From: Mucilaginibacter sp.
GTDB taxonomy: Bacteria; Bacteroidota; Bacteroidia; Sphingobacteriales; Sphingobacteriaceae
DNA: 41,929 nt
Direction: 5' to 3'
NCBI GenBank assembly: GCA_028287925.1
Contig: JAQBOS010000003.1
Location: 1-41,929 of the forward strand
The notes under the pieces were generated by a model. It was not told the DNA's origin, searched no databases, and worked only from the letters and a program-made list of their open reading frames with translations. This document shows positions 2,167 to 19,696 of the stretch, piece by piece (position 1 is the stretch's first letter; every line of letters begins with the position of its first letter). A program made the position numbers and the translations under genes.

Positions 2167-2191
2167 ATTATTGATTTTTAATTTCTACCGG

Positions 2192-3322
2192 TCATGATAA
2201 AATAACCAGGTCGGTAGCTGTTTCCGCTATTTTCTTTAATAACTCATTAAACACTGCTGTCCTCAAAATAACCTGGAACAGGCTCAGGTGAGGTTTGCCA
2301 ATACAAATAGTTGTTACTTCCCGTTCTTCCGCAATGCTCATTATAGTTTGAGTAACATTATCACTTTTTATTTTCACCACCTCGCCCCCAAGCTCTGTAG
2401 CCAGTTTAAAATTATTGATGAGGTGACGTTGCTTGTCGAGCTTGATGCGATTGCCACTTTCGCTGCTGCTTTGCACATATAAAACTATCCAGGGTGATCG
2501 GTAATAAGATGCCAGGCGCGCCGTTTTCCTGATCACAACCTTTGCCGTTTCCGCATTGGATGAGATACAGGCAAGAAACTTTTCAGGTCGCAATTTGATC
2601 TGTTTGGGGATCTCAATATCTATCTTCCGTTCAACATGGTGCGCCACTTCTTTCAGGGCAAGCTCCCTTAATTGCAGGATCTTATCGGGCTGGAAGAAAT
2701 TTTGTAAGGCAATATCCACTTTACTTTTGTCATAGATCTTCCCTTCCTTCAACCGGTCGATGAGCTCATCAGCAGTAAGGTCAATATTGACAATTTCGTC
2801 CGTCAGCTCCAGCACTTTGTCGGGAATGCGCTCGGTAATGGGGATCCCGGTAATCTCTTCAATCTCCTGGTTCATGCTCTCCAGGTGCTGAATATTAACA
2901 GCTGAAATAACACTTATACCTGCTTCCAAAATATCCAGCACATCCTGCCAGCGTTTACCGTTCTTGCTGCCTTCCACATTAGTGTGTGCCAGTTCATCAA
3001 CAATAACAACCTCAGGGTGGCGGTTCAAAATGGCCGGCAGGTCCATTTCTTCCATTTCTTTCCCTTTATAGAAGATCTTTCTTCGCGGGATAACGGGCAA
3101 ACCGGCTAATAAACTATGTGTTTCGGCACGATTGTGCGTTTCTATATAGCCAATTTGTATATCGATACCGTTACGTAAAAGCGCATGGGCCTCCTGCAGC
3201 ATCCGGTAGGTTTTACCCACCCCGGCGCTCATGCCGATATAGATCTTAAACTTCCCCCGCCGTGATTTTTTTACCAGTTCGATAAAAGTTTTAACCTCAT
3301 CATTCTTTTCTTCCGTTTTCAT
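2192..3322 (-). CDS. kdpD: Short KdpD (KdpD head + USP domain, no kinase)
   Basis: The 376-residue product matches only the N-terminal cytoplasmic part of KdpD. Walker A GMSAGVGKT is at residues 30-38, followed by the family's Walker-B-like VVIVDELAHTN and the KRWQDV segment. A universal-stress-protein-like domain runs from about residue 245 to the end (FLACISSNAETAKVV onward). Full-length KdpD of Escherichia coli is about 894 residues with four membrane helices, GAF, HisKA and HATPase; all of these are absent. The protein should be a cytosolic sensor module, in other bacteria tied to K+ or c-di-AMP sensing through the USP part. It starts 5 bases after the porin gene and is followed by a separate histidine kinase. 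Truncated KdpDs are common annotations in Bacteroidota, so I read it as intact, not broken. Confidence 0.93.
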   Translation of the reverse strand: MKTEEKNDEVKTFIELVKKSRRGKFKIYIGMSAGVGKTYRMLQEAHALLRNGIDIQIGYIETHNRAETHSLLAGLPVIPRRKIFYKGKEMEEMDLPAILNRHPEVVIVDELAHTNVEGSKNGKRWQDVLDILEAGISVISAVNIQHLESMNQEIEEITGIPITERIPDKVLELTDEIVNIDLTADELIDRLKEGKIYDKSKVDIALQNFFQPDKILQLRELALKEVAHHVERKIDIEIPKQIKLRPEKFLACISSNAETAKVVIRKTARLASYYRSPWIVLYVQSSSESGNRIKLDKQRHLINNFKLATELGGEVVKIKSDNVTQTIMSIAEEREVTTICIGKPHLSLFQVILRTAVFNELLKKIAETATDLVILS

Positions 3323-3327
3323 CGTAA

Positions 3328-4407
3328 TTAAAATGAAACTGCTAAGCTGGTTGTAACTAATGGATTATTTGCAACATAAACATTGTCTTTCAAAAATATT
3401 TTGTCTTTACTATTATAGGTCTTTCCTTCTAACCTTATTACGACATTTGGAAAGGGTATGTAATCCACATTTAATGAATAACCCGTTGTATTAAAACCAT
3501 CAGGCGTTTGGGTATTAATAAAAATTCCATGCTGATCTTTATAATACTCAATCCTGCCTGCAACAGCCCATTGCTTATCCAATAAATAACGGGCTATAAA
3601 TACCGGGGCAATAATGTTATTTGTTCCTGCTGCGGCATGTACTTTTTGCTGCGTGCCATAATCTATACCCGCAGTAATACCAAATTTAGGTGTTAGTTGT
3701 ATAATTGCGTAAAGATCATGGTAAAATCGTTTTACACTGGTAGAATCGGGGCCTTCGGTACCCAGATAATTGCTGTAATTCAGCGTAAAATTTGCTGATG
3801 GCTTCCAGGTCAATTGTACACCGCCGGCAAGGCTATTATTTGCATCCTGCCGCTGGATCCGCTGCCAGCCATTTAAAAATAAAGCAGCCGCGGTAAACTT
3901 TCCATCAGCGGTGTTATAGGTGATTTTAGCGCCTGATTCATAATAAGGCGTATTATCTGAAACTATCCCACGGGTAAGTACCCAGCAGTCTTTTCCAACT
4001 GCGCTTTCAAAGCCAATATGCGATGAAAAAACACCTGCATCCAGCCACAGATCAGCTTTTTTTGAAAGCTTGATCCCGGCATTGGCTTCATAAATATTTT
4101 TTAATACGCCAGGTTCGGCAGCCAGGTTTGCGTTTGTATATGTTCCGGCCATTAAAGCAAAATTGGCGCGGATATTATCATTTGAATAAGCGGCTTTTAT
4201 AAACCCAAGGTTAAGGGTTACTTCGTTTGTACGATTGTAGGAATATACAAATGATGGCCTGTTATGATCTGCCGGCTTGTTAAAATCGTAACTGTAGTAT
4301 AGTTCCGCATAGCCGCTTATGGTAAGCTTTGCGGTATGCGAAGTATCCTGTGCTTTAACTATTGCCATTGTTAAAAACAGGATAATTATTAATATAATTC
4401 TTCTCAT
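3328..4407 (-). CDS. BBP2-type outer-membrane porin in kdp operon
   Basis: The 359-residue protein starts with a signal peptide (MRRIILIIILFLTMAIVKAQ) and continues as amphipathic beta-strands ending in an aromatic C-terminus (TTSLAVSF), as expected for an outer-membrane barrel. The pattern VFSSHIGFES, SDNTPYYESG, LFLNGWQ, GGVQLTWKP is typical of the OmpL-like beta-barrel porin-2 (BBP2) family. It sits between kdpC and kdpD, with 67 bases and a hairpin before it and only 5 bases after it. The inferred job is passive entry of K+ or counter-ions into the periplasm to feed the Kdp pump. A second porin of the same family is at 10413-11849. Family assignment is fairly sure; the substrate is inferred from context only. 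Confidence 0.85.
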   Translation of the reverse strand: MRRIILIIILFLTMAIVKAQDTSHTAKLTISGYAELYYSYDFNKPADHNRPSFVYSYNRTNEVTLNLGFIKAAYSNDNIRANFALMAGTYTNANLAAEPGVLKNIYEANAGIKLSKKADLWLDAGVFSSHIGFESAVGKDCWVLTRGIVSDNTPYYESGAKITYNTADGKFTAAALFLNGWQRIQRQDANNSLAGGVQLTWKPSANFTLNYSNYLGTEGPDSTSVKRFYHDLYAIIQLTPKFGITAGIDYGTQQKVHAAAGTNNIIAPVFIARYLLDKQWAVAGRIEYYKDQHGIFINTQTPDGFNTTGYSLNVDYIPFPNVVIRLEGKTYNSKDKIFLKDNVYVANNPLVTTSLAVSF

Positions 4408-4474: not shown

Positions 4475-5038
4475 TTATTTCAGTTGGTCAAGCGCTACGT
4501 TTAATTTTAGCACATTAACTTTCGGTGGACCAAATAAGCCTAACAAAGGCGCTTCAATATGGCTATCAACCAATGCGGCAACTTTTTGCTCATCAAGCTT
4601 TCTGAATTTCGCAACCCTTTTTACCTGTATTTTTGCAGCTTCGGGCGATATGTCCGGATCCAGCCCGCTGCCGGATGCGGTAACCAGATCAGCAGAGATC
4701 TCGCTGCGTTTAAGATAAGGGTGATATTTTAAAAGTGTGTCAATCCGGTTGGAAACGTCCTTCAGGTAATCCGGGTTGCTTGGCCCTTTATTTGAGCCGC
4801 CGGATCCGGCTGCATTATAAGCCACAGCTGATGGCCTGCCCCAAAAATATTGGGGTTTAGTGAAGCTTTGCCCTACATTGGCATAGCCAACCACCTTGCC
4901 ATTTACCACTACTGTTTCTCCGTTGCCGGCGCCTTTTGAAAGCTTCCCGGCCAGCATGATAGAAACCGGGTAGATAACACATAATACTATAGTAAGTACG
5001 ATGGTGATCCTTATTGATGGAATAATATACTTTTTCAT
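4475..5038 (-). CDS. kdpC: Potassium-transporting ATPase subunit C
   Basis: 187 residues, the normal KdpC length. One N-terminal membrane helix (about residues 8-30, IRITIVLTIVLCVIYPVSIMLA) is followed by a periplasmic domain with family motifs: GQSFTKPQYFWGRPSAVAYN, SGSGLDPDISPEAA and ALVDSHIEAPLLGLFGPPKVNVLKLN. KdpC is the periplasmic/membrane accessory subunit that stabilises the KdpFABC complex and affects its K+ and ATP handling. It starts 11 bases after kdpB. No unusual residues stand out. Confidence 0.97.
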   Translation of the reverse strand: MKKYIIPSIRITIVLTIVLCVIYPVSIMLAGKLSKGAGNGETVVVNGKVVGYANVGQSFTKPQYFWGRPSAVAYNAAGSGGSNKGPSNPDYLKDVSNRIDTLLKYHPYLKRSEISADLVTASGSGLDPDISPEAAKIQVKRVAKFRKLDEQKVAALVDSHIEAPLLGLFGPPKVNVLKLNVALDQLK

Positions 5039-5049
5039 TTTCTTTAATA

Positions 5050-7077
5050 TTAAATGATGTGTGCAACAATCAGATCAATTAGCTTGATCCCAATAAATGG
5101 TGCGATAACACCGCCAACACCATAGATCATCAAATTGCGGCGTAATAGTGCGCTTGCTCCTATCGGCTTGTATTCAACACCTCTGAGCGCAAGCGGGATC
5201 AGCATAGGAATAATGATGGCGTTAAATATAACCGCCGACAAAATTGCCGATTCAGGACTGTGCAGCCCCATAATATTGATGCTCTGCAAGGCAGGGATAG
5301 AAGCCATAAACAAAGCAGGCACAATGGCAAAATATTTGGCCACATCGTTTGCTATGGAGAAGGTGGTAAGCGTTCCACGGGTGATCAGCAATTGCTTACC
5401 AATCTCAACGATCTCTATCAGTTTGGTTGGGTCATTATCCAAATCCACCATGTTACCGGCTTCTTTTGCTGCCTGGGTACCGCTGTTCATAGCAACGCCC
5501 ACATCGGCTTGTGCAAGGGCCGGGGCATCATTGGTACCGTCACCCATCATGGCTACCAGTTTACCACTGTTTTGTTCCAGCTTAATGTAGTTCATCTTAT
5601 CCTCGGGCTTAGCTTCGGCTATATAATCGTCCACACCAGCCTTTTCGGCAATGAATTTGGCGGTTAAAGGGTTATCACCGGTAACCATTACTGTTTTAAC
5701 ACCCATTTTACGCAGGCGTTCAAAACGTTCAGAGATCCCGGTTTTGATGATATCCTGCAATTCAACTACACCCAGGATCTTTTCATTTTGCGAAACAACC
5801 AGCGGAGTACCACCGTTTGATGCAATGATCTTTACCCGTTCATCTACTTCTTGCGGGAAAGGATTCCCTGCTTTTAGTGCTATATTTTTGATGGAATCTG
5901 CAGCTCCTTTACGAATACGTAAACCGTCAGGAGTATTAATCCCGCTTGACCGTGTTTCGGCTGTAAATTTTACAAATTCAGAATTTGGAGGGGCAACAGG
6001 TAATTTAAAATGACCGGCTGCCAACTCCACGATGGATTTACCTTCGGGTGTTTCATCTGCCAATGATCCCAACACGCAGGCTGTTATTAAATCATCCGGA
6101 GCTATGCCCGAAGCGGGCCAAAAGTGGGTAGCCTTACGATTGCCTATAGTAATAGTGCCTGTTTTGTCAAGTAAAAGCACATCAATATCACCTGCTGTTT
6201 CAACCGCCTTGCCTGATTTAGTGATCACATTAGCTCTTAATGCTCTGTCCATACCAGCAATCCCGATGGCTGATAAAAGGCCACCGATGGTGGTTGGGAT
6301 CAAACATACAAACAGGGAGATCAAGGCTGCTATAGTAATAGGCGTATTTGCATAATTTGCAAACGGCTGCAGTGTAACGCAAACAATAATGAATATCAGC
6401 GTAAAGCTGGCAAGCAAAATGGTCAGGGCGATCTCATTTGGTGTTTTCTGACGCGATGCGCCCTCAACCAAAGCAATCATCTTATCCAAAAAGCTTTCAC
6501 CCGGTTGGGTGGATACCATTACTCTTATCTCGTCCGACAATACCTTGGTACCGCCTGTTACGGATGATTTATCACCTCCTGACTCGCGGATCACCGGCGC
6601 TGATTCGCCTGTTATAGCCGATTCATCTATAGTGGCTATCCCCTCAATGATCTCACCATCGGTTGGGATTGTGTCGCCTGTTTCACAGGTAAAGACATCG
6701 CCTTTACGCAAATCGCTCGATGATTTCAGTACGATGGTACCATCTTCCATAACAACCTTTGCAGGAGTTTCCTGGCGGGTTTTACGTAAGCTGTCGGCCT
6801 GTGCCTTACCGCGAGCCTCGGCAATTGCCTCGGCAAAATTGGCAAATAGTACGGTTAAAAGCAGGATAAAAAATATGGACAAGTTATATCCGAAAGATCC
6901 CTGGTCGTGGTGCGAAAAGCTGTATGCGCTTACCACCAGCATAACCAATGTGCCTACCTCCACGGTAAACATTACCGGGTTGTGGATCATTACCCGGGGA
7001 TCCAGCTTTATGAACGATTGTTTTAAAGCTGTCTGTACCTGGGCAGGTTCAAATAATTTATTAGATTGATTTTTCAT
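5050..7077 (-). CDS. kdpB: Potassium-transporting P-type ATPase subunit B
   Basis: 675 residues, normal for KdpB. Visible P-type ATPase signatures: TGES at 156-159 (its serine is the inhibitory phosphorylation site in E. coli KdpB), PTTIGG at 261-266 in the ion-path helix, DKTGTIT with the phosphorylated D304, KGAAD in the nucleotide domain, and [20 protein letters not shown] in the hinge. It hydrolyses ATP in the inner membrane to drive high-affinity K+ uptake through KdpA. It lies 8 bases from kdpA and 11 from kdpC, so the three are clearly co-transcribed. Confidence 0.98.
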
Positions 7078-7085
7078 TGTTCTGT

Positions 7086-8810
7086 TTATCTTTTAATAAG
7101 CATGGAGAAATGTTCTGCCAGCGGGCCGAGGGCAAGCGCAGGGAAATAAGACAGGGCATTCAATACAATAATTACCGCGAAAGTCATTACCCCAAAAGTG
7201 AGGGTATCGGTTTTTAAAGTACCGGCAGACTCTGGAATGAATTTCTTTTGTGCAAGCAATCCGGCAATCGCTACGGGGCCAATTATTGGCAAAAAGCGAC
7301 CAAATAGCATAACAACCCCGGTTGTAACGTTCCAGAATATGTTGCCATCTCCCAAACCTTCAAACCCTGAACCATTGTTGGCATTGGATGAAGTATACTC
7401 GTACAACATCTCCGAAAAGCCATGGTATTTAGGGTTATTGAGCCAGGTGGAAGGCTTTACTGCCCAATCGATATTAGGGTGAACGGTAACTATATAGCTG
7501 GCAAGCGCAGTTCCCGTCATGATAAGGAAAGGGCTCAGCAGCGTTATCAGCGCAGCAATTTTTACTTCTCTTGCCTCTACTTTATGCCCAAGGAATTCCG
7601 GGGTTCGACCAACCATAAGGCCGGAGATGAAGACCGCAATTATTACATATATAAAATAATTTAACAAACCTACACCGCAACCGCCGAAGAAGCCGTTGAT
7701 CATCATGGCCAGCAATTGCCATAAACCGGTAAGGGCCATGGTGCTGTCATGCATCCCGTTAACAGAGCCTGTTGAAGTAACTGTAGTCAAAGTGCTCCAA
7801 TATGCAGTTGCTGCCGGCCCAAAACGCACCTCTTTACCTTCCATGGCGCCAGTTGCCTGACTTACACCCATTTTGGCAATCAGCGGGTTCCCGCCAAGCT
7901 CACTACTTATGGTAGGTAACATCAGCATCATCACACCAAACATCATCACACCAAAAAACACCCAGGCTAACTTCTTACGGCGTATAAAATAACCGAAAGC
8001 CAGGATCATTGCCACCGGGATAATAAACTGGGAAATGATCTCAGTCATGTTGGTCAGGTAATTCGGATTTTCCAGCGGATGGGCCGAGTTGGCGCCAAAC
8101 CAGCCACCGCCATTTGTACCTAAGTGTTTAATGGCTATCATTTGTGCAGCTGGTCCGCGCGACATGTTTACCGTATCGCCCTGTAAGGAAATAAATTTAT
8201 CCTTACCGGCATAGCTGCTTGGGGTACCATTAAAGGTTAGTATTAAAGACACAACTATAGATAAAGGCAGCAGCAAACGGGTAATGGATTTTAAAAAGAA
8301 ATTCCAAAAGTTACCCAGGTCTGTAGCGGTTTTATCCCTGAAGGCTTTAAATACAGCCACAGCACATGCAATACCAGTTGCCGCACTCACAAAATGTAAA
8401 AACATAAAGATGAAGTGTTGGGTAAGATAAGTAGCGCCACTCTCGCCTGAATAGTGCTGCAGGTTACAGTTCACCACAAAGCTGATGATCGTGTTAAAAG
8501 CAGTATCGGCTGATTGCCCTGCATTGCCGTCAGGATTGAGTGGTAATTTATCCTGGTACATCAAAACAAAAAAGCCATAAACGATCCATAAACTATTGAT
8601 GGTCATCATGGCTTTGAGAAACTGTTTCCAGTTCATCGGCTCATTAGGGTTAATACCGGATAGTTTAAAAATGCCTTTTTCTATGGGCTTCAAAAAATCC
8701 GTCCATGTTTTTTCCCCGGCAAACATTCTGGCCAGGTACTTGCCCAGTGGTATTGCGATCAGCAGCGTGATGGCAAAGGAGGCAATAATTCCAAGTAATT
8801 CAGTGTTCAT
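7086..8810 (-). CDS. kdpA: Potassium-transporting ATPase subunit A (operon copy)
   Basis: 574 residues, about ten membrane helices, four-fold pseudo-symmetric K+ channel-like subunit. The selectivity-filter loops are visible as [10 protein letters not shown] (from 114), [15 protein letters not shown] (from 231), [10 protein letters not shown] (from 347) and SNANNGSG (475-482). In the first filter the TNTN of E. coli is NCN here; the others are close to the usual form. It binds K+ and passes it to KdpB. It follows kdpF by 12 bases and precedes kdpB by 8. A second, more divergent KdpA lies on the opposite strand at 15953-17680. Confidence 0.97.
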
Positions 8811-8822
8811 TGTCTTTTACAA

Positions 8823-8900
8823 TTAAAATTTTTCGGGTTTGAGCAGCACATATATCATGTATATGAAAACTGCAATTGCTACGATGAATAGGGCTAACAT
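8823..8900 (-). CDS. kdpF: Potassium-transporting ATPase subunit F
   Basis: A 25-residue peptide beginning MLALFIVAIAVF and ending LLKPEKF, almost entirely one membrane helix. The position immediately ahead of kdpA and the C-terminal L-x-x-x-E-x-F pattern fit KdpF, the lipid-like stabilising peptide of the KdpFABC complex (29 residues in E. coli). It is too short for most gene finders. It starts 5 bases downstream of another small ORF (8906-8989). Confidence 0.85.
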   Translation of the reverse strand: MLALFIVAIAVFIYMIYVLLKPEKF

Positions 8901-9307: not shown

Positions 9308-9904
9308 TTAAAGGTTGGCATGGGCCATTGCTCCATTTTGCTGAAAATAAAGGTACTTGAGCTTATATTGATTTGATAGCTTATCATAAGCTATCAGGTC
9401 AGCATCCTGTTTAAAATTATTTTGAATACTGTATCTGAACCCGGTTTGTGTGGGAAAGCTGTTCCAAAGATTTTCAATAGTTAATTTTTGTACCGGTTGC
9501 GCTAAATTTACGCTGTAGAAATAAGTTTCTACCGGCAAATATCCTTTTCCCTGCTGGGTTAGCTTATCTTTTTTATAAAGCGTAAAGCCGGCAGTATCCA
9601 ATATGCTATAAGCCTCATTGTGAAAGAAGCGAAAATCCTGGTTGTGCATTCTGTATCCGAATATTTCACTTTTAGCCAGCGTCAACTTTTTGCCCTGATA
9701 AACAAGGTTAATGTTTTTTCCATCCAGGAATTCGTTGAGCTGCATTTTATCGGTTGGTGATAATGTATAAGTTAATTTGTTTAATTTGTAATCCTGTTCA
9801 GTCAAATAGATCCCATTAGATCCAGTTGAAGATTGTGCCTGTAAACGCAGTGCTGATAAACTTATTATTGCTATTGCAGTAAGTGTTTTAATTGAATTTT
9901 TCAT
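9308..9904 (-). CDS. Secreted protein of unknown function
   Basis: A longer frame opens at 9988, but I prefer ATG at 9904-9902, which gives 198 residues beginning with a clear signal peptide (MKNSIKTLTAIAIISLSALR, then LQAQ). The upstream part of the longer frame runs through a terminator-like hairpin at 9950-9985, which supports the internal start. The mature part has an NKLTYTLSPTDKMQLNEF segment and many aromatic residues, with no motif I recognise. It lies between the kdp promoter region and the second porin. Exported or periplasmic; function unknown. Confidence 0.75.
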   Translation of the reverse strand: MKNSIKTLTAIAIISLSALRLQAQSSTGSNGIYLTEQDYKLNKLTYTLSPTDKMQLNEFLDGKNINLVYQGKKLTLAKSEIFGYRMHNQDFRFFHNEAYSILDTAGFTLYKKDKLTQQGKGYLPVETYFYSVNLAQPVQKLTIENLWNSFPTQTGFRYSIQNNFKQDADLIAYDKLSNQYKLKYLYFQQNGAMAHANL

Positions 9905-9949
9905 TTTATATTTATTTAAGTATGCGGGGGTATAAATTTTGCCTGTTTT

Positions 9950-9985
9950 AATAAAAGCCGGGCGGCAAAACCCGGCTCTTTTATT
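9950..9985. terminator. Bidirectional hairpin with T-runs
   Basis: GCCGGG (9957-9962) pairs with CCCGGC (9971-9976) and the stem is flanked by AATAAAA and TTTTATT, so it can act in either direction. On the minus strand it would end a short transcript coming from about 10075-10150, not a known long gene, because the porin upstream already has its own terminator. Confidence 0.6.
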
Positions 9986-9991
9986 CAACCT

Positions 9992-10412: not shown

Positions 10413-11849
10413 TTAAAAGCGAACCAGCAATGCGCCTATAAACCGCGTTTCAGACGGCACCAGGTCCGGTGTAAAATCTGCTGGTACCGGGGTGGTGTTA
10501 TATCCGTCAGGAGAGGTTACGCCGCCATGGCCTGCAAAATATGGCACACTTGCATGTCTGTGCACCACTTCCAAACGGAAGGTTAAATAATCATTTGGCA
10601 TAATGTCAAATGTTGTTGAGTAATCATATCCGTGAAACTGGTCGCCTGGGTTTGCTGTAAACGGATGTGAGCCTGTTGCACCTGTGTTAATTGCCGGGAT
10701 AGGATTAGCATCTCCGGTTGGATACAATACCAGGTAACGTCCCGGATTATTGATCACGCCGCCGCCAATTGTCCAGCCGTAATGGCCCTTACCAAATACT
10801 ACGCGGTTATATACCATGCCGCTTGCAAAATATTGAGCCGGTCCCTTAACCGGGTCGGCATGAAAACCATTTACACCGTCGCCTTTTTCAAAACCAATAT
10901 CCCCGGTTAATGAAAATGCCATGCTGTTTATAAAGCTGTTTTTGTTGGTGCTTTTAAAATAGCGCACTTCAATGCTATTATCCGAGTGGAAACGTTTTCT
11001 TCCCGGTTTATCCTGTGTATCGGCTCCATAGTAGGTATTTGTTAAAGCCTGGAACCATTCAACCGGACGCCATAAAATCTGGCCGCCTATTCCCGGCTGG
11101 CTGTTAAACATACCATACGATTGCCAGCCGTTTATTAACCAGGGCTCAATCTTAAGCTTATCAGAAACGAAGATCTGCACCCTTATCCCGTTAAAGAACC
11201 AGGGCGTATTATCTGAAGTAAATGACGGCTGGTAAGCCCAGTTCTCGGCATTATAATAGGAGAACAAACCAACGTATGACATAAAGATCCCTGCGTCAAC
11301 GTTAATACCATGCAGCACATTAAAGTGATACCCGGCGTTGGCTTCGCTCAAATAACGGTAAGCAGTAGCGAGGTCATATTGTCCGCGCGTAACGCTAAAA
11401 TCATTACGCGGAACTACAGTAGCGCGGGTGCCGAATTGGGTGAGGATAGTTGCGCGAACGTTATCATAATGAAAATCGCCTCCAAATGCTGCAGTTGAAA
11501 TTTCAAACTCATGGTCGCGGGCCAGTGCGGTTGATCCTACAACCGTATGGTCAATGGGGTTATTGTTTGATGCGGTGTAGTTAACGTCCAGCAAAATACG
11601 GCCGGTAAAATATTTTGAATCCAACAGGGCGCTGTGCCTGCGGTCGTTCCCATTTAGCCAGGTAAAATCACCAAATGCAAATGGTTCGCTTACAGCCTTA
11701 ACAGTATCTTTTTTTACCGCAGTATCGGCTTTTATAAATGATGGAACCTTAACCTCCTGATTTTTGTTGGAGGCAAGAACAGGCTGACTTTGGGAGTATG
11801 CGTAAGTTAGCGATACCCCTAAAGTAATTGACAATAAAACTTTTTTCAT
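10413..11849 (-). CDS. BBP2-type outer-membrane porin under sigma-54 promoter
   Basis: 478 residues with a signal peptide (MKKVLLSITLGVSLTYAYSQ) and a barrel ending in ETRFIGALLVRF. It shares with the kdp-operon porin the BBP2/OmpL-like pattern: VDAGIFMSYVG, SDNTPWFFNG, PWLINGWQ and GGQILWRP. It is a single-gene unit, with a sigma-54 promoter at 11955-11969, paired activator sites upstream and a terminator after it. A leader of about 94 bases is predicted. I infer that it is made together with Kdp to raise outer-membrane permeability under K+ limitation or osmotic stress. Family call is good; substrate is unknown. Confidence 0.85.
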   Translation of the reverse strand: MKKVLLSITLGVSLTYAYSQSQPVLASNKNQEVKVPSFIKADTAVKKDTVKAVSEPFAFGDFTWLNGNDRRHSALLDSKYFTGRILLDVNYTASNNNPIDHTVVGSTALARDHEFEISTAAFGGDFHYDNVRATILTQFGTRATVVPRNDFSVTRGQYDLATAYRYLSEANAGYHFNVLHGINVDAGIFMSYVGLFSYYNAENWAYQPSFTSDNTPWFFNGIRVQIFVSDKLKIEPWLINGWQSYGMFNSQPGIGGQILWRPVEWFQALTNTYYGADTQDKPGRKRFHSDNSIEVRYFKSTNKNSFINSMAFSLTGDIGFEKGDGVNGFHADPVKGPAQYFASGMVYNRVVFGKGHYGWTIGGGVINNPGRYLVLYPTGDANPIPAINTGATGSHPFTANPGDQFHGYDYSTTFDIMPNDYLTFRLEVVHRHASVPYFAGHGGVTSPDGYNTTPVPADFTPDLVPSETRFIGALLVRF

Positions 11850-12088: not shown

Positions 12089-13429
12089 TCAATTTAAAAG
12101 GAGGTGGTATTCTTCAATCTTTCGGTACAGGGTAGCAAGGCCAATCCCCAGGATCCTTGCGGCTTCTGTTTTATTTCCTTTTGCATATTTTAAGATCCGG
12201 TTGATGTGGTGTTTCTCCACGCTATCCAGGTCAAGCGCCATAAGGTCATAGTAGCCGCCATTGTGAAATTCATAAGGCAATAGCTTAGGTGTCAGGACTG
12301 GTTCGTCCATCAAAATGATCACCCGCTCAATCACATTTTTTAATTCCCTGATATTTCCATTCCATTTATGCTGATTCAAAAGCTTGAAAAAGCGCTCATC
12401 AACCTCAGGCACTTTCTTTTTTACTTTCCCCGCATAAATTTTTATAAAGTGATGGGCAAGTGTTTCTATATCCCCGGTTCTTTCTCTTAGCGGTGGTAAA
12501 ACAATTGAAAACCCTGATAAACGATAATACAGGTCAAGGCGAAAGTGATTTTCTTCTGCTTCTTTTTGCAGGTCGCGGTTGGTTGCCGCAATCAGGCGAA
12601 TATCAACTTTGGTCATTTTTGTTTCACCAACTTTTATAAAGGTGCCGTTTTCCAATACCCTTAAAAGTTTAGCCTGCAAATCAAGGCTCATTTCTCCTAA
12701 TTCATCCAAAAAAATGGTGCCTCCGCTGGCCTCCTCGAACAGGCCTTTTTTATCTTTTAAAGCGCCTGTAAAAGCCCCGGCTTTATAGCCAAATAATTCA
12801 CTCTCCAGCAGTTCTTTGCTGAACGCACTGCAGTTAACGGCCACAAATGGTTTATCTTTTCTTAAACTTTCCTGATGAATAGCTTCCGCAAAAACCTCCT
12901 TTCCGGTGCCGGTTTCACCAAGCAAGAGCACGGTAGCATCAGTTTTGGATACCTTTTTAGCCAGCTCAACGGCTTCTATTATTGCCGGGGACTGACCTAA
13001 AACTATCGGGAACCCCTTTTGTTCTTCAATCTGCTGCTCCAGCCTATTTAACCGGAATTGCAGATTAGCCTTATCAAGCGCCTTACTGACCAGGGGGATA
13101 ATTTTTTCGTTATCGTCGCCTTTTGTTAAATAGTCAAAGGCGCCGTTCTTAATCGCCAAAACGCCATCGCTTATTGAACCAAATGCTGTAAGGTTAATTA
13201 TCTCAATATAAGGTTTGATCTGTTTTATTTTCTTTACAAGCTCCACACCATTGGCATCAGGCAGCTTAACGTCGCTTAATACAACCCTGATATCCTCCTG
13301 CTCTATCATGCGGATGCCGCCTTTTGCATTAGCTGCCTGTAAAACATGGTAGCCCTCCATTTCAAGGATGCGTGCAAGCAAAGCGCTGAGTTTAACCTCA
13401 TCGTCAATTATTAATATGTTTGATTTCAT
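12089..13429 (-). CDS. NtrC-type sigma-54-dependent response regulator
   Basis: 446 residues. A receiver domain with acidic pocket (DDE at 9-11), phospho-acceptor D53, T81 and K103 is followed by an AAA+ domain with Walker A GETGTGKE (171-178), the sigma-54-contacting GAFTGA loop (218-223) and Walker B GGTIFLDELGEM. A Fis-type helix-turn-helix (NKTEAARILGIGLATLYRKI) ends the protein. It binds enhancer sites and opens sigma-54 promoters using ATP. Its start overlaps the end of the M20 peptidase gene by 26 bases, suggesting translational coupling. No kinase is next to it; the kdp-operon kinase is the only plausible local partner. Three sigma-54 promoters with matching palindromes nearby are its likely targets. 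Confidence 0.95.
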   Translation of the reverse strand: MKSNILIIDDEVKLSALLARILEMEGYHVLQAANAKGGIRMIEQEDIRVVLSDVKLPDANGVELVKKIKQIKPYIEIINLTAFGSISDGVLAIKNGAFDYLTKGDDNEKIIPLVSKALDKANLQFRLNRLEQQIEEQKGFPIVLGQSPAIIEAVELAKKVSKTDATVLLLGETGTGKEVFAEAIHQESLRKDKPFVAVNCSAFSKELLESELFGYKAGAFTGALKDKKGLFEEASGGTIFLDELGEMSLDLQAKLLRVLENGTFIKVGETKMTKVDIRLIAATNRDLQKEAEENHFRLDLYYRLSGFSIVLPPLRERTGDIETLAHHFIKIYAGKVKKKVPEVDERFFKLLNQHKWNGNIRELKNVIERVIILMDEPVLTPKLLPYEFHNGGYYDLMALDLDSVEKHHINRILKYAKGNKTEAARILGIGLATLYRKIEEYHLLLN

Positions 13430-14582: not shown

Positions 14583-15128
14583 TCAGTTTAATTTTGGATC
14601 AAACATCATTGCGGTGCAAAGACAATTGCACCTGTTCTTACTTTGCAAAACATCATAGTTTACGCAGCTTTTACAGCCATCCCAAAAAGTCGGCTCCTGT
14701 GCAATCTCGGCATAGGTAACCGGCTCAAAACCCAGGCGGGTATTCAGCTTCATGATAGCTGAACCGGAGGTGATGCTGAACACTTTTGCCAGGGGATACC
14801 TGCTTCTTGACAGCTCAAATATTTGCGTTTTGATAAGGGAGGCTACCCCCTGGTTGCGGTGATCAGGAGATACGATCAGGCCGCTGTTAGAGACAAACCT
14901 TTCATTGTCCCAGGTTTCAATATAGGAGAAACCCACCCATTCGCCACTTTCTGTAACGGCTACAATAGCCTTCCCGGCGTCAATTTTTTCTATTATAGCG
15001 GCTGCCGATCTTTTGGATATTCCGGAGCCCCGTACAATAGCGGAACTTTCCATTTCATGAATAATTTGGTCAGCAAAAACCACATCAGCGGGTATTGCCG
15101 ACCTTATAATAATTCGTTCATCTTCCAT
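14583..15128 (-). CDS. GNAT acetyltransferase of the arginine-cluster type
   Basis: 181 residues. The GNAT core shows SGLIVSPDHRNQGVASLIKT, the acetyl-CoA pyrophosphate loop (R/Q-x-x-G-x-A form), and SAIMKLNTRLGFEPVTYAEI. The C-terminal tail is unusual, with clustered cysteines (DGCKSCVNYD and CNCLCTAMMFDPK). From memory, this tail and the GSGISKRS segment are characteristic of the acetyltransferase that begins the arginine operon in Bacteroidota, where it probably makes N-acetylglutamate. Here it pairs with an ArgE-like deacetylase ahead of a sigma-54 regulator. The acetyl acceptor is unknown. I found no GG-N10-GC promoter directly upstream. Confidence 0.88.
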   Translation of the reverse strand: MEDERIIIRSAIPADVVFADQIIHEMESSAIVRGSGISKRSAAAIIEKIDAGKAIVAVTESGEWVGFSYIETWDNERFVSNSGLIVSPDHRNQGVASLIKTQIFELSRSRYPLAKVFSITSGSAIMKLNTRLGFEPVTYAEIAQEPTFWDGCKSCVNYDVLQSKNRCNCLCTAMMFDPKLN

Positions 15129-15280
15129 TTCTTTTAGTTTATTTCAGTTAAAGCCTTGAAAGTTTTTTAACTGTAAATATTCATATACCAAAAGAATGCC
15201 TATTGTACCAGGCTATCCGGAATTGGGCTTTTAAAGCATTTAAATGCAGTTTTTATTCATTTGCGGATTATTAACGCATA

Positions 15281-15312
15281 AAAAAAACCTCTCAAAATGA
15301 AAGGCTTTTTTC
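15281..15312 (-). terminator. Terminator built on the activator-like palindrome
   Basis: CCTCTCAAAATGAAAGG (15288-15304) forms a stem around AAA, with A7 before it and C-T6 after it. On the minus strand it ends the 60-residue membrane peptide gene. The palindrome carries the same TCAAAATGA core as the proposed activator sites, so it may serve both as terminator and as a binding site upstream of the GNAT gene. Confidence 0.7.
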
Positions 15313-15334
15313 CCGAATTTATCTGTTTAGAGAA

Positions 15335-15517
15335 TTAATGAACTGAGTGATGATCCAAAGTGCTGCCTGTAAAATGTTCCAGGTAGCCATTCTCATTTAC
15401 CGACAGGTTGCTAATGGCTTTTACAGTTACCGGTTTTTTCTTTTTCGGGCCGATTAATGGGAGTACTATAATAGCTAATAAGGCGCTTACTTTTAGTACG
15501 ATATAAAATGCTGTCAT
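15335..15517 (-). CDS. 60-residue single-pass membrane peptide, sigma-54 promoter
   Basis: A frame is open from 15583, but the sigma-54 promoter at 15568-15582 predicts a transcript start near 15556, so I choose ATG at 15517-15515. The product has one membrane helix (about residues 3-24, AFYIVLKVSALLAIIVLPLI), then GPKKKKP and a polar tail containing NENGYLEHF and ending in HHSVH. It is a monocistronic unit with its own terminator and is divergent from the orphan kdpA. I do not recognise a named family. By context it belongs to the same potassium/osmotic response. Confidence 0.75.
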   Translation of the reverse strand: MTAFYIVLKVSALLAIIVLPLIGPKKKKPVTVKAISNLSVNENGYLEHFTGSTLDHHSVH

Positions 15518-15567
15518 TATAAAATGTTTAAATATATTTATGAAAATTGACTTCTGAGATCTCATTA

Positions 15568-15582
15568 GCCATGAACATGCCA
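15568..15582 (-). promoter_or_regulatory. Sigma-54 promoter of the 60-residue peptide gene
   Basis: The minus strand reads TGGCATGTTCATGGC. The -24 element TGGCATG is close to the consensus TGGCACG, and GG and GC are 10 bases apart; the -12 element has TGGC for TTGC. Leader length to the chosen ATG is about 39 bases. Confidence 0.75.
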
Positions 15583-15670
15583 CGGTTTAATAAATTCCAA
15601 TTATCTTCATCTATAAGATAAAAACGCAGTTTATTTTTTAATAAGAGGATTGTCTATTTTTTTAAACCTT

Positions 15671-15701
15671 TCATTTTGACGGTATGGAATTATCAAAATG
15701 A
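15671..15701. promoter_or_regulatory. Paired activator sites in the divergent region
   Basis: TCATTTTGA (15671-15679, within CCTTTCATTTTGACGG) and TCAAAATGA (15693-15701, within TTATCAAAATGATAG) are centred 94.5 and 116.5 bases upstream of the GG of the 15568-15582 promoter, 22 bases (two helical turns) apart. They could also serve the orphan kdpA on the other strand. Confidence 0.68.
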
Positions 15702-15842
15702 TAGTATTGTGATTATAGTTAATAAACAAACTCCCTTGTTATTTAATTATGATTTATAATTTCCGGCATCTTACCTGTTTAATATCCTCCGGTAATTGAA
15801 TTGTCCAATCTATACAGGGTATTTTATCATAACAGGAATAAA

Positions 15843-15859
15843 CCTCTCAAATTGATCGG
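15843..15859. promoter_or_regulatory. Further activator-like palindrome before orphan kdpA
   Basis: CCTCTCAAATTGATCGG resembles the other sites (core TCAAATTGA). It is flanked by AAA and T7, so on the plus strand it also looks like a weak terminator hairpin. Which role applies cannot be decided from sequence. Confidence 0.5.
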
Positions 15860-15906
15860 TTTTTTTCAGAAATTAAAGGTTAGGAATAAGCTTATTATAC
15901 TTAAAA

Positions 15907-15947
15907 GCCCTCATTACGGGGCCATTATCAATCAGGGCACTTTTTTT
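15907..15947 (+). terminator. Hairpin plus T7 immediately before orphan kdpA
   Basis: GCCCT (15907-15911) can pair with AGGGC (15934-15938), followed by AC and seven T ending 5 bases before the ATG. An alternative pairing of GCCC with GGGGC at about 15919-15923 competes for the same left arm. This resembles a leader attenuator; the stem is short, so confidence is limited. Confidence 0.4.
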
Positions 15948-15952
15948 GTTAA

Positions 15953-17680
15953 ATGATAAATAAACACATTCAAATGCCTGCTGATAGTTTTGGTTTTATC
16001 CTGATCTTCCTGGTTACACTCATCCTGGCCATCCCGCTTGGGGCTTACATGAAAAAAGTTTACAATGGCGACCCCGGCCCTCTTGATTTTATACATCCGC
16101 TTGAAAAATGGATCTTTAAAATATGCCGCATTGATCCTGAAAGATCAATGGACTGGAAACAATATTTGCTGGCGTTATTAACCATTCAGTTGGTGTGGAT
16201 CCTTCCTGCATTCATTATCCTGATATTTCAGGGAAAGCTTTTTCTCAATCCTGCTCATATCCCGGGGATGGAGTGGTCATTGGCTTTAAATTCAGTTATA
16301 AGCTTTTTAACCAGCACCAATCTTCAGCATTATTCGGGTGAAACCGGCGCCAGTTATCTTTCGCAAACGGGGGTATTTACATTTCTTCAATTTGTTAGCG
16401 CTGCCACAAGCCTTGCCGCCGGTGTAGCCATTGTAAGAGGTTTGGCTGCCAGCCCAGGTACCGGGATTGGTAATTTTTTTAATGATTTTCTGAAATCGTG
16501 CACACGCATATTGTTACCGCTAAGTGTTGTTGTAGCTATAATTTTTATGTTTGGCGGGATGCCCATGACCTTTAAGGGGCCCAAAAAAATCACCACTTTA
16601 CAGGGTGATCCGGTTAACGTAGCCACAGGTCCTGTTGCTTCTATGGTCCCGATAAAAGAGCTGGGTTCAAATGGAGGCGGGTTTTTTGGTGCTAATGACG
16701 CACATCCTTTTGAGAATCCCGGGTTTGCCACGTTTATAGTGCATTTTATTATTGTACTGTTATTACCAATGGCGTTTGTGTTTTTTATAGGTTATTATCT
16801 TAAGCGAAAAAAATTCGCATGGATGCTTTTTTCGGTCATGACTGCAGGCTTGCTATTGCTTACTATCCCGATTGTCAAATCAGAGGCAGGCGGCAATCCA
16901 AAGGTAACCGCTATGGGCGTAAACCGATCGGTGGGTAATATGGAGGGTAAGGAAGTTCGTTTCGGTGTTAACTATTCCGCGTTCTATGCGGCCGAAAATG
17001 TGGCTATCCCGGCTGGTACGGTTGCGTCGGTACATGACAGTTATATGCCAATATCTTCTGTAGCCATGTTAGTAGGTATGCAGGTCGACGCTTTTTTTGG
17101 CGGCTTGGGAACCGGCTGGATCAATATGCTGATGTACCTGGTAATTGCTGTATTTATCGGCACGCTGATGATAGGCAGATCGCCGGAGTTGTTTGGAAAA
17201 AAAATTAGTACTGAGGAAATGCAGGTGGCCGTAGGGGTAAGTGTATTACAACTATTTGTTCCGGTGGCCCTTGCCGCAATAGCTTGCTTTGTTTATGTTA
17301 ATAAAAGTGGGGGCGGCGATACACTGGGCTGGCTAAGTAATAAGGGTCCGCACGGCTTTACTACCATGCTGTATGAGTTTATTTCCTCGGTGGCCGGTAA
17401 CGGGTCTAATTTTGGCGGCCTGGGTAATAATACAACCTTCTGGAATCTTACCACGGCTTTCGCTATGTTAACCGGGCGCTTTGTACCCATCATCGGGGGT
17501 TTGGTGATAGTTGGGTTAATGAAACAGAAAAAATTCATTCCTGCATCTTCAGGAACATTACAAACCGATTCAGCAACCTTCGGCGTTTTGCTTTTCGCCA
17601 TTATTCTTATACTAAGTGTTTTATCGCTATTTGTTATTTTTATGGCGGGGCCTATAGCCGAATATTTTTCTCTGCATTAA
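15953..17680 (+). CDS. kdpA: Orphan second KdpA paralogue
   Basis: 575 residues, full KdpA length and topology, but no kdpB, kdpC or kdpF beside it. Filter loops: [11 protein letters not shown] (from 120), GSNGGGFFGANDAHP (from 238), PAGTVASVHDS (from 353) and SSVAGNGSN (478-486). The central glycines remain, while residues around the third and fourth filters differ from the operon copy ([13 protein letters not shown]). A second possible start is M8 (15974). It could replace KdpA in the Kdp complex with changed affinity, or work alone as a channel-like carrier. It is followed after 111 bases by mgtE and is divergent from a sigma-54-driven peptide gene. The KdpA identity is firm; the role is open. 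Confidence 0.92.
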   Translation: MINKHIQMPADSFGFILIFLVTLILAIPLGAYMKKVYNGDPGPLDFIHPLEKWIFKICRIDPERSMDWKQYLLALLTIQLVWILPAFIILIFQGKLFLNPAHIPGMEWSLALNSVISFLTSTNLQHYSGETGASYLSQTGVFTFLQFVSAATSLAAGVAIVRGLAASPGTGIGNFFNDFLKSCTRILLPLSVVVAIIFMFGGMPMTFKGPKKITTLQGDPVNVATGPVASMVPIKELGSNGGGFFGANDAHPFENPGFATFIVHFIIVLLLPMAFVFFIGYYLKRKKFAWMLFSVMTAGLLLLTIPIVKSEAGGNPKVTAMGVNRSVGNMEGKEVRFGVNYSAFYAAENVAIPAGTVASVHDSYMPISSVAMLVGMQVDAFFGGLGTGWINMLMYLVIAVFIGTLMIGRSPELFGKKISTEEMQVAVGVSVLQLFVPVALAAIACFVYVNKSGGGDTLGWLSNKGPHGFTTMLYEFISSVAGNGSNFGGLGNNTTFWNLTTAFAMLTGRFVPIIGGLVIVGLMKQKKFIPASSGTLQTDSATFGVLLFAIILILSVLSLFVIFMAGPIAEYFSLH

Positions 17681-17791
17681 TCAGAAAAAGAGTAATAGTA
17701 AAATGCCTTAGATTTATCGGCCGCAATTAATCTTTTGATAATTTTAATTGCCTTAATTTGCTCAACACATTCACAATAATTTTCACGATCA

Positions 17792-19162
17792 ATGAAATCA
17801 CTTACAGATATAAAAGACCTTATTTTAAAAGGAGATCTGAAAAAATTATTTAGTAAAGATTCAAAAGAAAAATTTCATCCTTCGGAAATAGCTACACTGC
17901 TAAATTCGGTATCGCTCAGCGAAGCCCGCGGAATATTTGATTCTTTTGTTGAAGAAAGGCAGGTTAACGTTTTTCCTTTCCTGGGGCCTTATCTGCAAAA
18001 CCAGTTGATCAAAAATGCATCGGTTCAACAAAAGAGTTATATCCTAAATCACTTGAGTTCAGTTGATCGTTATGCCTTTTTAATGAGCTTAAAGGGCGTC
18101 CAGCGGTCGGCTTTGCTGGTTCATTTGGACGAACATAACAGAAAAGCTACCGAAATAATGTTAGGTTACTCTCCGCAAAGCGTAGGTAAATTATTAAATA
18201 CCAAATTCGTTACCCTTAGAAAAGAAATGACGATTGCCCAGGCCATCGATTATTTACAAAAGAACCAGCCCGATTCAGATAGCGCGAATGTATTATATGT
18301 AGTAGATGAAAAAGGGGAATTGATTGATGATATCCCGGTAAGGAGATTGGTCTTAAACGATTCCAAAAAACGAATTGAAGATATAATGGATCATCAGTTT
18401 ATCTGCCTCCAGGTTAATGATCCGATAGGTGAAGCCATAGGTAAATTTGAACAATATGACCGAAACGTTTTACCCGTAGTTACTGCTGAAAACCAGCTTT
18501 TAGGGATCGTAACCATTGATGATATCATAGATGCCGCCCAACAACGTGATACCAGGGAAATGCAGAAATTCGGGGGTGTTGAATCCCTGGAATACCCTTA
18601 TGTAAAAACACCTTTATTTTCCCTGATCAGGAAACGTGCGGGGTGGTTAATTATCCTCTTTCTAAGCGAGATGCTTACCGCCACAGCAATGGGACACTTT
18701 GAAAAAGAGATAGAATTAGCAGTTGTCCTGGCCTTGTTTGTTCCATTGGTAATTTCGAGCGGCGGTAATTGCGGCTCACAAGCGGCCACATTAATTATCC
18801 GCGCAATGGCCGTGCGTGAACTTACTGTGAGGGATTGGTGGTATGTGATGAAAAAGGAGTTGTTTTCGGGATTAATTTTAGGAATAATTTTAGGCAGCAT
18901 CGGGTTTTTGCGGATTATAACATGGCAGTATTTGCACTGGTACGATTACGGCGCTAAATTTTTACTAATGGGAAGCACCATTTTCTTTTCGTTGATCGGC
19001 ATTGTGATGTGGGGAACCTTAAGCGGTTCAATGATCCCGATATTACTTAAACGGCTTAAATTCGACCCGGCTACTTCCTCAGCACCTTTTGTAGCTACCC
19101 TTGTTGATGTAACCGGGCTAATTATCTATTTCAGTATTGCCTCTATCATTTATTTAAAATAA
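17792..19162 (+). CDS. mgtE: Magnesium transporter MgtE
   Basis: 456 residues with the MgtE layout: helical N domain (about 1-130), tandem CBS domains (about 135-262, with NVLPVVTAENQLLGIVTIDD), and a five-helix membrane pore domain from about 285. The pore domain carries the family signature SSGGNCGSQAATLIIRAM. MgtE is a Mg2+-gated Mg2+ channel of the inner membrane. It follows the orphan kdpA on the same strand with a 111-base gap and no clear terminator between, so co-transcription is possible. Confidence 0.95.
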   Translation: MKSLTDIKDLILKGDLKKLFSKDSKEKFHPSEIATLLNSVSLSEARGIFDSFVEERQVNVFPFLGPYLQNQLIKNASVQQKSYILNHLSSVDRYAFLMSLKGVQRSALLVHLDEHNRKATEIMLGYSPQSVGKLLNTKFVTLRKEMTIAQAIDYLQKNQPDSDSANVLYVVDEKGELIDDIPVRRLVLNDSKKRIEDIMDHQFICLQVNDPIGEAIGKFEQYDRNVLPVVTAENQLLGIVTIDDIIDAAQQRDTREMQKFGGVESLEYPYVKTPLFSLIRKRAGWLIILFLSEMLTATAMGHFEKEIELAVVLALFVPLVISSGGNCGSQAATLIIRAMAVRELTVRDWWYVMKKELFSGLILGIILGSIGFLRIITWQYLHWYDYGAKFLLMGSTIFFSLIGIVMWGTLSGSMIPILLKRLKFDPATSSAPFVATLVDVTGLIIYFSIASIIYLK

Positions 19163-19696
19163 CACTGTATTTATATAACGTTCCCTCCCCTGTTGTCAGC
19201 TGAGGTAGGGCAATTGCACGTTGCCATGTGATTAGTTATAGCGAACATTCTCTTTACTTAACTTGAGTCAGGCATAAGCAAACGTTCACCTCACCCCAAA
19301 CCGTTCTCTTTCATAGAAGTCCTTTGGACAACAGCGTTGAGGAGAAGCGCAAGTTTATGTATCCGGCAAAGCGTTCCACTTTTACACGCGGAACGGGGTG
19401 GAACGATGTGGAACATGCTGACTATCAGGGTTTTTAGCTTTTTTCCAATAACCAATAAATGTAAGTTTCTGATAATCAGGCATTACATAATTTGGCGTTT
19501 TTTGATCGTTGCTGTAATTTATTTATAATCAGCGTGTTCCACTTTGTTCCATGCGTTCCAGACCGTTAGTTTTGTAATCCAGAGTACGGAGTCCATTAAT
19601 TGGTTTCACATAAATAGATTTTATAGCATTGAAAATTAATATACCAGCTTTAAGCTTTGCGCATTCTGCTTTTAGCTTTTATATAATTGAGGTGCA
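19163..19696. other. 534-base non-coding stretch
   Basis: No convincing gene is present; a 63-codon plus-strand frame at 19337-19528 has an implausible composition. The left part has low-complexity pyrimidine-rich text (around 19182-19310) that looks like decayed sequence. The right part contains the inverted repeat at 19388-19562. mgtE and the DoxX-like gene converge here but I see no strong terminator. Confidence 0.5.
19388..19562. repeat. Imperfect inverted repeat with GGAAC units
   Basis: The left arm (19388-19420) holds three GGAAC units and ends GTGGAACATGCTG. The right arm (19530-19562) begins CAGCGTGTTCCAC, 12 of 13 matching its reverse complement, and holds three GTTCC units with similar spacing. 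About 109 bases lie between the arms. It could be a non-autonomous mobile element remnant or a structured RNA. Confidence 0.5.

Follow-up and report, generated by a model that had tools for sequence, protein, structure and literature searches.

A conserved KdpA paralogue of Bacteroidota with a remodelled selectivity-filter floor and no adjacent KdpB

The locus described here raises the question of what a bacterium may do with a second KdpA, the K+-selecting subunit of the Kdp system, encoded apart from the ATPase subunit KdpB; behind it lies the wider question of how a channel came to form the front half of a pump driven by ATP. The stretch of DNA that was analysed (the window) comprises 41,929 nucleotides from a draft assembly of Mucilaginibacter sp., 86% complete and divided into 675 contigs. 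At 15953-17680 on the plus strand, it carries an intact ORF with an ATG start, coding for a protein of 575 aa that we name KdpA2. In profile searches, this protein matches Pfam PF03814 with 631.7 bits (E 1.1e-189, cut-off 22.6) and NCBIfam TIGR00680 with 524.6 bits (cut-off 387.7), and it shares 46% identity with KdpA1, the operon copy. The original prediction of a second full-length KdpA without KdpB, KdpC or KdpF alongside it was confirmed: no kdpB, kdpC or KdpF-like ORF was found among the scanned neighbours, the adjoining genes being a GNAT ORF 825 bp upstream on the opposite strand and an MgtE gene 112 bp downstream. This lone status has to be qualified, as the entire kdp locus is present on the same contig, 7142 bp from kdpA2. 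PF03814 is the sole Pfam match of KdpA2 at E 0.001, with Trk-type family profiles unmatched and no attached signalling domain detected in Pfam; neither was a TrkA/KtrA-type regulator found among the scanned window neighbours. All five KdpA proteins scanned (the two of the window and three lone copies) score over the KdpA equivalog cut-off, and the automatic name 'potassium-transporting ATPase subunit KdpA' may thus cover genes with another role. Of note, the MgtE divalent-cation transporter also adjoins kdpA2 in genome G1069 (17792-19162, plus strand, in the window; L222 6884-8266, plus strand, in G1069), the two being 66% identical.

The kdp locus of the window lies entirely on the minus strand, spanning 400 (kinase) to 8810 (KdpA1), plus a KdpF-like ORF. 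In the direction of transcription, it comprises this KdpF-like ORF (25 aa, located exactly at 8823-8900), kdpA1 (7086-8810, 574 aa, PF03814 729.1 bits), kdpB (5050-7077, TIGR01497 1016.9 bits), kdpC (4475-5038, PF02669 236.2 bits), a BBP2 outer-membrane porin (3328-4407, PF07642 323.1 bits), a KdpD sensor domain with Usp and without kinase (2192-3322, PF02702 306.3 bits) and a separate histidine kinase with HAMP, PAS, HisKA and HATPase domains in Pfam (400-2166). Between the kdp locus and kdpA2, at 2.5 kb from the latter, an NtrC-type response regulator is encoded (12089-13429, minus strand), recognised by Pfam and by synteny, since it adjoins kdp loci in relatives. The Kdp sensor is therefore split into KdpD-N/Usp and a separate kinase (400-3322), and the regulator is of the NtrC type (sigma-54 activator) and not KdpE-like; this set recurs near the kdp loci of relatives. 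A sigma-54 promoter shared by kdpA1 and kdpA2, an idea raised by the type of regulator, was rejected, as no -24/-12 site of either gene stood above shuffled sequence; likewise, sigma-70-like sites and terminators within 15100-19400 were at shuffle level. Bacteroidota kdp loci regularly include BBP2 porins (PF07642), of which the window has two (3328-4407 and 10413-11849). They also adjoin several KdpA copies without their own kdpB, lying just upstream of the lone KdpA in G587 and G1131; in G027, G1665 and, weakly, G1033, this upstream place is taken by a homologue of the window porin. An ORF of 226 aa at 9308-9988 (minus strand) has no Pfam or NCBIfam match, and its homologues in G1028 (43-44% identity) are located in the kdp operon (L260 11015-11581) and directly upstream of kdpA2 (L220 11701-12279).

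With regard to the fold, an AlphaFold2 model of KdpA2 built from 20 aligned proteins (pLDDT 80.2, pTM 0.85) is placed by Foldseek and VIA-align 2 with KdpA chains (VIA-align 2 Z 47.5-49.3 over 553 residues, rmsd 2.1; TM 0.90-0.91), followed by KtrB, TrkH and HKT at Z 15.7-24.9. The surroundings of the filter loops belong to the least certain parts of the model, which is uninformative on filter geometry.

Including the window copy, 11 KdpA2 proteins were found, from at least three Bacteroidota families. The other ten belong to M. lappiensis, Pedobacter caeni and three Bacteroidota MAGs (together G585, G588, G586, G587 and G589), and to G027, G439, G1028, G1033 and G1069. A bit-score gap separates them from operon copies, at 912 versus 731 in the genus of the window among the matches listed, and at 1039 versus 725 in the family of G586. 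They are rare: at least 5 of 149 genomes in the genus of the window, 2 of 201 in the family sample, 2 of 244 in the family of G586, 1 of 199 in that of G439, and 2 of 395 in the phylum sample, the window genome included. No plasmid-borne KdpA2 was seen among 465 matching plasmid records, none of which reached 60% identity. In a tree of 159 KdpA sequences, eight KdpA2 form a single clade (SH-aLRT 100, stem 0.6), and in a quick tree of 76 sequences all 11 do so, also with an SH-aLRT of 100, in agreement with the expectation that lone copies would form their own clade with conserved filter changes. Branching inside the clade mixes families, which suggests that KdpA2 has passed between them by transfer. 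The dN/dS ratio is about 0.06 for the two closest pairs, on which the estimate rests since dS is saturated for most pairs (YN00), and indicates purifying selection. Neither of the findings that the original prediction had held against itself was encountered: the identity to KdpA1 and the dN/dS of the closest pairs do not fit a gene that was recently duplicated and evolves under relaxed selection, and the assembly's sole kdpB over the cut-off stands with KdpA1, so that a second kdpB serving as private partner in the window genome was discarded. M. lappiensis has two kdpB genes, each beside its own canonical kdpA.

What sets the clade apart is the floor of its selectivity filter. The filter signature of K+ channels is TVGYG, and the filter floor of these channels shapes ion binding. 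In E. coli KdpA, we take the corresponding strands to be N112-T113-N114, T230-N231-G232, S343-C344-G345 and N466-N467-G468. The original prediction had read loops 3 and 4 of KdpA2 as PAGTVAS and SSVAGNGSN, against TGSVN and SNANNGSG in the operon copy. The quoted letters are correct, the loops of the window KdpA2 being AIPAGTVASVHD and SSVAGNGSNF and differing from those of the operon copy (7086-8810, minus strand); loops 1 and 2 are altered too (N112S and T230S). At position 1 of the four strands (E. coli N112/T230/S343/N466), the ring reads S-S-P-G in all 11 KdpA2 and N-T-S-N in 153 of 174 KdpB-adjacent KdpA. In the window protein, it is formed by Ser121 (16313-16315; S in 11/11 KdpA2, N in 174/174 KdpB-adjacent copies), Ser239 (16667-16669; S in 11/11, T in 168/174), Pro353 (17009-17011; P in 11/11 and 0/174) and Gly482 (17396-17398; G in 11/11, N in 174/174), all codons being on the plus strand. 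At position 3, every KdpA2 and all 174 KdpB-adjacent copies retain N or D in the first strand and G in the other three. Since passages of PMC12629597 place G232 at the S3 site and describe S4, just under S3, as having only two lower ligands, both side-chain oxygens, the position-1 ring should shape the S3 and S4 sites.

Other residues are fixed throughout the 11 KdpA2, namely, G144S, T339N, T at position 346, D at position 370, K415Q and E455T. The D at position 370 corresponds to a vestibule aspartate, Asp379 in the window (E. coli E370; 17087-17089, plus strand), where 70 of 70 Bacteroidota operon copies carry N. All 11 keep Q116, N239, R400 and R493, together with the intramembrane GGxGxG loop. 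Of the 25 positions changed across the whole clade, 14 belong to the pore or gating loops, and 11 of these carry a fixed new residue, versus 3 of the 11 others (Fisher p 0.017, with pore-loop limits that were chosen once the changed positions were known; p is 0.049 when the protein is simply divided at residue 381).

The side facing KdpB has behaved differently from the fixed pore. Arg409 (17177-17179, plus strand), equivalent to R400, which forms a salt bridge to the KdpB P domain according to a passage of PMC6255902, is retained in 11/11 KdpA2. In helix D3M2, which touches KdpB, the equivalent of G395 is Thr404 (17162-17164, plus strand), and this position is T, S or C in 11/11 KdpA2 versus G in 135/135 KdpB-adjacent copies; Gln424 (17222-17224, plus strand) replaces K415, with Q in 11/11 versus K in 133/135. 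Both G395 and E410 are replaced by varied residues in all 11, and P545 in 8 of them. Contact helices were delimited as residues 379-404, 409-435 and 527-552, limits that we set around the KdpB contacts named in the passages of PMC6255902 at hand. Relative to canonical KdpA, identity within the clade is 0.82 in these helices versus 1.02 elsewhere (95% interval of the difference -0.296 to -0.088), and identity of KdpA2 to canonical copies is 0.62 versus 0.78 (-0.257 to -0.057). Some drift is also seen in the remainder of the second half (0.93 within the clade and 0.69 to canonical copies), so that contact with KdpB is not the sole cause. Furthermore, a KdpF-like ORF precedes none of eight kdpA2 genes examined (those other than G1028, G1033 and G1069), versus 67 of 71 canonical Bacteroidota kdpA. 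A pore that had re-specialised while being released from KdpB would be expected to show just this combination of fixed pore residues and drifted contact helices.

In terms of genomic surroundings, none of the 11 kdpA2 genes is directly adjacent to kdpB, and 6 of them are situated inside or close to a kdp locus. In G027 and G1033, kdpA2 is within the kdp operon, with kdpB at 3.3 kb and 1.8 kb, respectively, the nearest distances recorded; in the former, the start of kdpD and the stop of kdpA2 share one base, and a one-base gap separates the two genes in the latter. It adjoins a regulator in M. lappiensis and G589, and a kinase in G1069; the sixth case is the window, with its regulator at 2.5 kb. 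The other five show no homologue of kdpB, kdpC, kdpD, kinase or regulator in the available flanks; a porin stands next to kdpA2 in G587, and a homologue of the window ORF 9308 in G1028. All 10 KdpA2 genomes checked, the whole set but for G1069 (63% complete), possess kdpB, a co-occurrence that is only suggestive because kdpB is common in these groups, KdpA itself being present in 116 of 201 family genomes.

KdpA2 is not the only KdpA without its own kdpB, although it is the most widespread lone KdpA found here. Seven further copies were identified in G1132, G1665, G1137, G1459, G1131, G589 (a third copy) and Paenibacillus sp. yr247, several of them through similarity to KdpA2. The G1665 (L255 11808-13541, plus strand) and G1132 (L127 9845-11713, plus strand) proteins form a lineage pair with 70% identity, a GSSN ring and N231D; the former gene is preceded immediately by a homologue of the porin and neighbours a canonical kdp operon, and the G1132 assembly contains no kdpB over the cut-off. 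Those of G1137 (L258 9623-11326, plus strand) and G1459 (L266 3722-5455, plus strand) share 59% identity, an NGST ring and N231D, and are encoded near kdp genes; the G1459 copy follows a kdpD on the same strand. In G1131, an alphaproteobacterial MAG by its record title, the lone gene (L099 2798-4525, minus strand; ring TTAN) has a BBP2 porin upstream and lies 5 kb from a canonical kdpA-kdpB pair. The third KdpA of G589 (L080 12011-13587, plus strand; ring NLMA, F at position 3 of strand 1) comes right after kdpC and ends at the contig end; the operon kdpA1 of this genome is interrupted at a run of unknown bases, and the third copy could therefore stand in for it. Finally, the Paenibacillus copy (L085 10007-11686, plus strand; ring NTNN, E at position 3 of strand 1) keeps all seven conserved filter columns, and this genome has two kdpB elsewhere. 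N231, which does not vary in KdpB-adjacent copies, is replaced by D in the copies of G1132, G1665, G1137, G1459 and G589. Overall, N112, N231 or N466 is changed in 17 of 18 copies without their own kdpB versus 0 of 174 KdpB-adjacent ones; the seven copies outside the KdpA2 clade retain K415 in 7/7 and G395 in 6/7. The 76-sequence tree needs six switches between the two kinds, four of them forced by well-supported branches; KdpA without its own kdpB thus arose at least four times, and probably six.

These counts exclude 10 of 159 KdpA rows shorter than 540 aa and 6 of the 149 aligned rows that lack a kdpB within 1500 bp on the same strand, of which L099, L127 and L085 have no kdpB of their own, L107 has an overlapping KdpB frame, and L177 and L079 are at contig ends. 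As a control, 38 stretches were taken from 20 genomes that have more than one KdpA match, the third matches of G1044, G1071 and G1112 excepted. A kdpB is found within 154 bp in 34 of them, all of which retain N112 and N466; three others (L263, L286 and L287) were dropped because they lie at contig ends. The only clear lone copy of this set, L266 of G1459, no longer has this pair intact. When rows are tested singly at the seven filter columns that are strictly conserved, G1137 (p 0.028) and the third copy of G589 (p 0.043) are nominally enriched in changes, and seven of nine rows are not significant, the two KdpA2 rows giving p 0.32; with six lineages pooled, an odds ratio of 2.96 is obtained (p 0.008). 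As copies without their own kdpB also differ at conserved positions outside the filter, the change is only partly specific to it.

Read together, these features make KdpA2 most likely a conserved, neofunctionalised KdpA paralogue whose main role is no longer that of channel half in KdpFABC. As to its function, we tentatively favour, at a little under an even chance, a cation-permeation protein uncoupled from KdpB and tied to the Kdp regulon. Such a membrane protein would bind K+ or a related monovalent cation and let it across through a remodelled pore of its own, with no need of KdpB. A filter floor that is smaller and less polar, together with the fixed aspartate of the vestibule, would reduce affinity and favour a downward exit of ions from the filter instead of their entry into the KdpB tunnel. 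KdpA2 would probably be made together with the Kdp system, because 6 of the 11 copies are in or near a kdp locus. The separate, fully supported clade, the SSPG ring in 11/11, the dN/dS of about 0.06, the fixed pore residues and the drifted contact helices argue for this reading, as do the missing KdpF-like ORF (0/8), the single kdpB over the cut-off and the fold shared with KtrB and TrkH. Against it, passages of PMC6255902 report that E. coli KdpA alone does not support K+ uptake in LB2003, so that a KdpA freed from KdpB would need changes to work. In addition, kdpB occurs in 10/10 genomes checked, as expected if KdpA2 needs KdpB, R400 and the pore-sealing intramembrane loop are kept in 11/11, and part of the drift spans the whole second half, contact or not. 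Some of these points also fit the exchange suggested by the original prediction, in which KdpA2 replaces KdpA1 in KdpF-A-B-C through the KdpB of the cell and confers another affinity or ion range. We consider such an exchange unlikely, if worth keeping in mind. It accords with the operon position in G027 and G1033, with the retention of R493 besides R400, and with E. coli KdpFABC, where excerpts of PMC12629597 describe filter mutants (Q116R and G232D) that stay coupled with shifted affinity and, for G232D, shifted selectivity; the conservation of G395 (six of seven) and K415 (all seven) in the other copies without their own kdpB points the same way. The idea is nonetheless weakened for KdpA2 itself, in which G395, E410 and K415 (11/11) and P545 (8/11) are replaced, the contact helices have drifted more than the rest of the protein, no KdpF-like ORF precedes the gene, and 5 of 11 genes are away from any kdp gene in the available flanks; the kept R400 and the presence of kdpB in all 10 genomes checked still speak for it. 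For the other lone lineages, exchange is at least as likely, because more of their KdpB side is preserved.

A K+ sensor or transceptor, binding outside K+ and reporting to the split KdpD, the kinase or the NtrC-type regulator without bulk transport, appears improbable. The neighbourhood of kdpD, a kinase or a regulator in 5 of 11 cases (G027, G1033, G1069, M. lappiensis and G589), with the window regulator 2.5 kb off, and the one-base overlap and one-base gap with kdpD, would suit it, as would the preserved S3-forming glycines; yet KdpA2 bears no signalling domain, five genes are far from regulators in the available flanks, and operons devoid of kdpA2 have the porin just before kdpD, so that the coupling may be only positional. 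That KdpA2 could be a decaying duplicate or an assembly artefact is very improbable. The draft state of the window genome and the variation of KdpB-side positions among copies could hint at it, but none of the 11 copies has an internal stop, the gene occurs in the named strains M. lappiensis and P. caeni, and the SSPG ring is unchanged even where identity to the window copy falls to 56%; recent duplication or decay was rejected on the basis of the 46% identity to KdpA1, the separate clade and the low dN/dS. Beyond KdpA2, it is conceivable, though we hold this more doubtfully than the favoured reading, that KdpA has repeatedly escaped its ATPase partner, the lone copies of Bacteroidota and of the class of G1131 being cation channels or transporters that work independently, with filters rebuilt in a way specific to each lineage, and often encoded beside Kdp.

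In open-access full texts, we found no description of an orphan, second or paralogous KdpA, or of a KdpA without KdpB. In the excerpts retrieved, 'kdpA2' is a reference mark, a primer name or, once, an automatic label (kdpA_2), and 'lacking KdpB' in the relevant excerpt of PMC9651954 concerns phosphorylation. With one precise and fixed change in its filter floor, KdpA2 resembles a KdpA that nature has released from KdpB, and may offer a route to whether KdpA can conduct alone and which filter residues the pump needs. A soil bacterium's spare copy of the K+-selecting Kdp subunit probably handles K+ or a related ion in a new way.

Compared with known systems, KdpA2 shares with the KdpA of KdpFABC (PDB 5mrw, 6hra and 7nnp) the family profile, the fold, the filter glycines, Q116, R400, R493 and the GGxGxG loop, but differs by the lack of its own kdpB, kdpC and KdpF-like ORF, by a floor reading S-S-P-G and not N-T-S-N, and by the replaced G395, E410 and K415 with drifted KdpB-contact helices. 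Like Trk, Ktr and HKT proteins, it has the same overall fold and would be a channel-like subunit without a P-type ATPase, whereas it matches the KdpA profile alone in Pfam, shares about 12-16% identity with them and has no TrkA/KtrA-type regulator among the scanned neighbours; a comparison with E. coli TrkH by eye gave nothing decisive. As in the E. coli filter mutants, the altered residues lie in the KdpA filter; unlike Q116R and G232D, KdpA2 keeps both Q116 and G232 and alters, in each of the four strands, the ring that lies two residues ahead of the filter glycine. The other lone KdpA resemble it in being second or lone copies, usually near a canonical kdp locus, with altered floors (GSSN, NGST, TTAN, NLMA and NTNN), but they have separate origins in the tree and have kept K415 in all seven and G395 in six.
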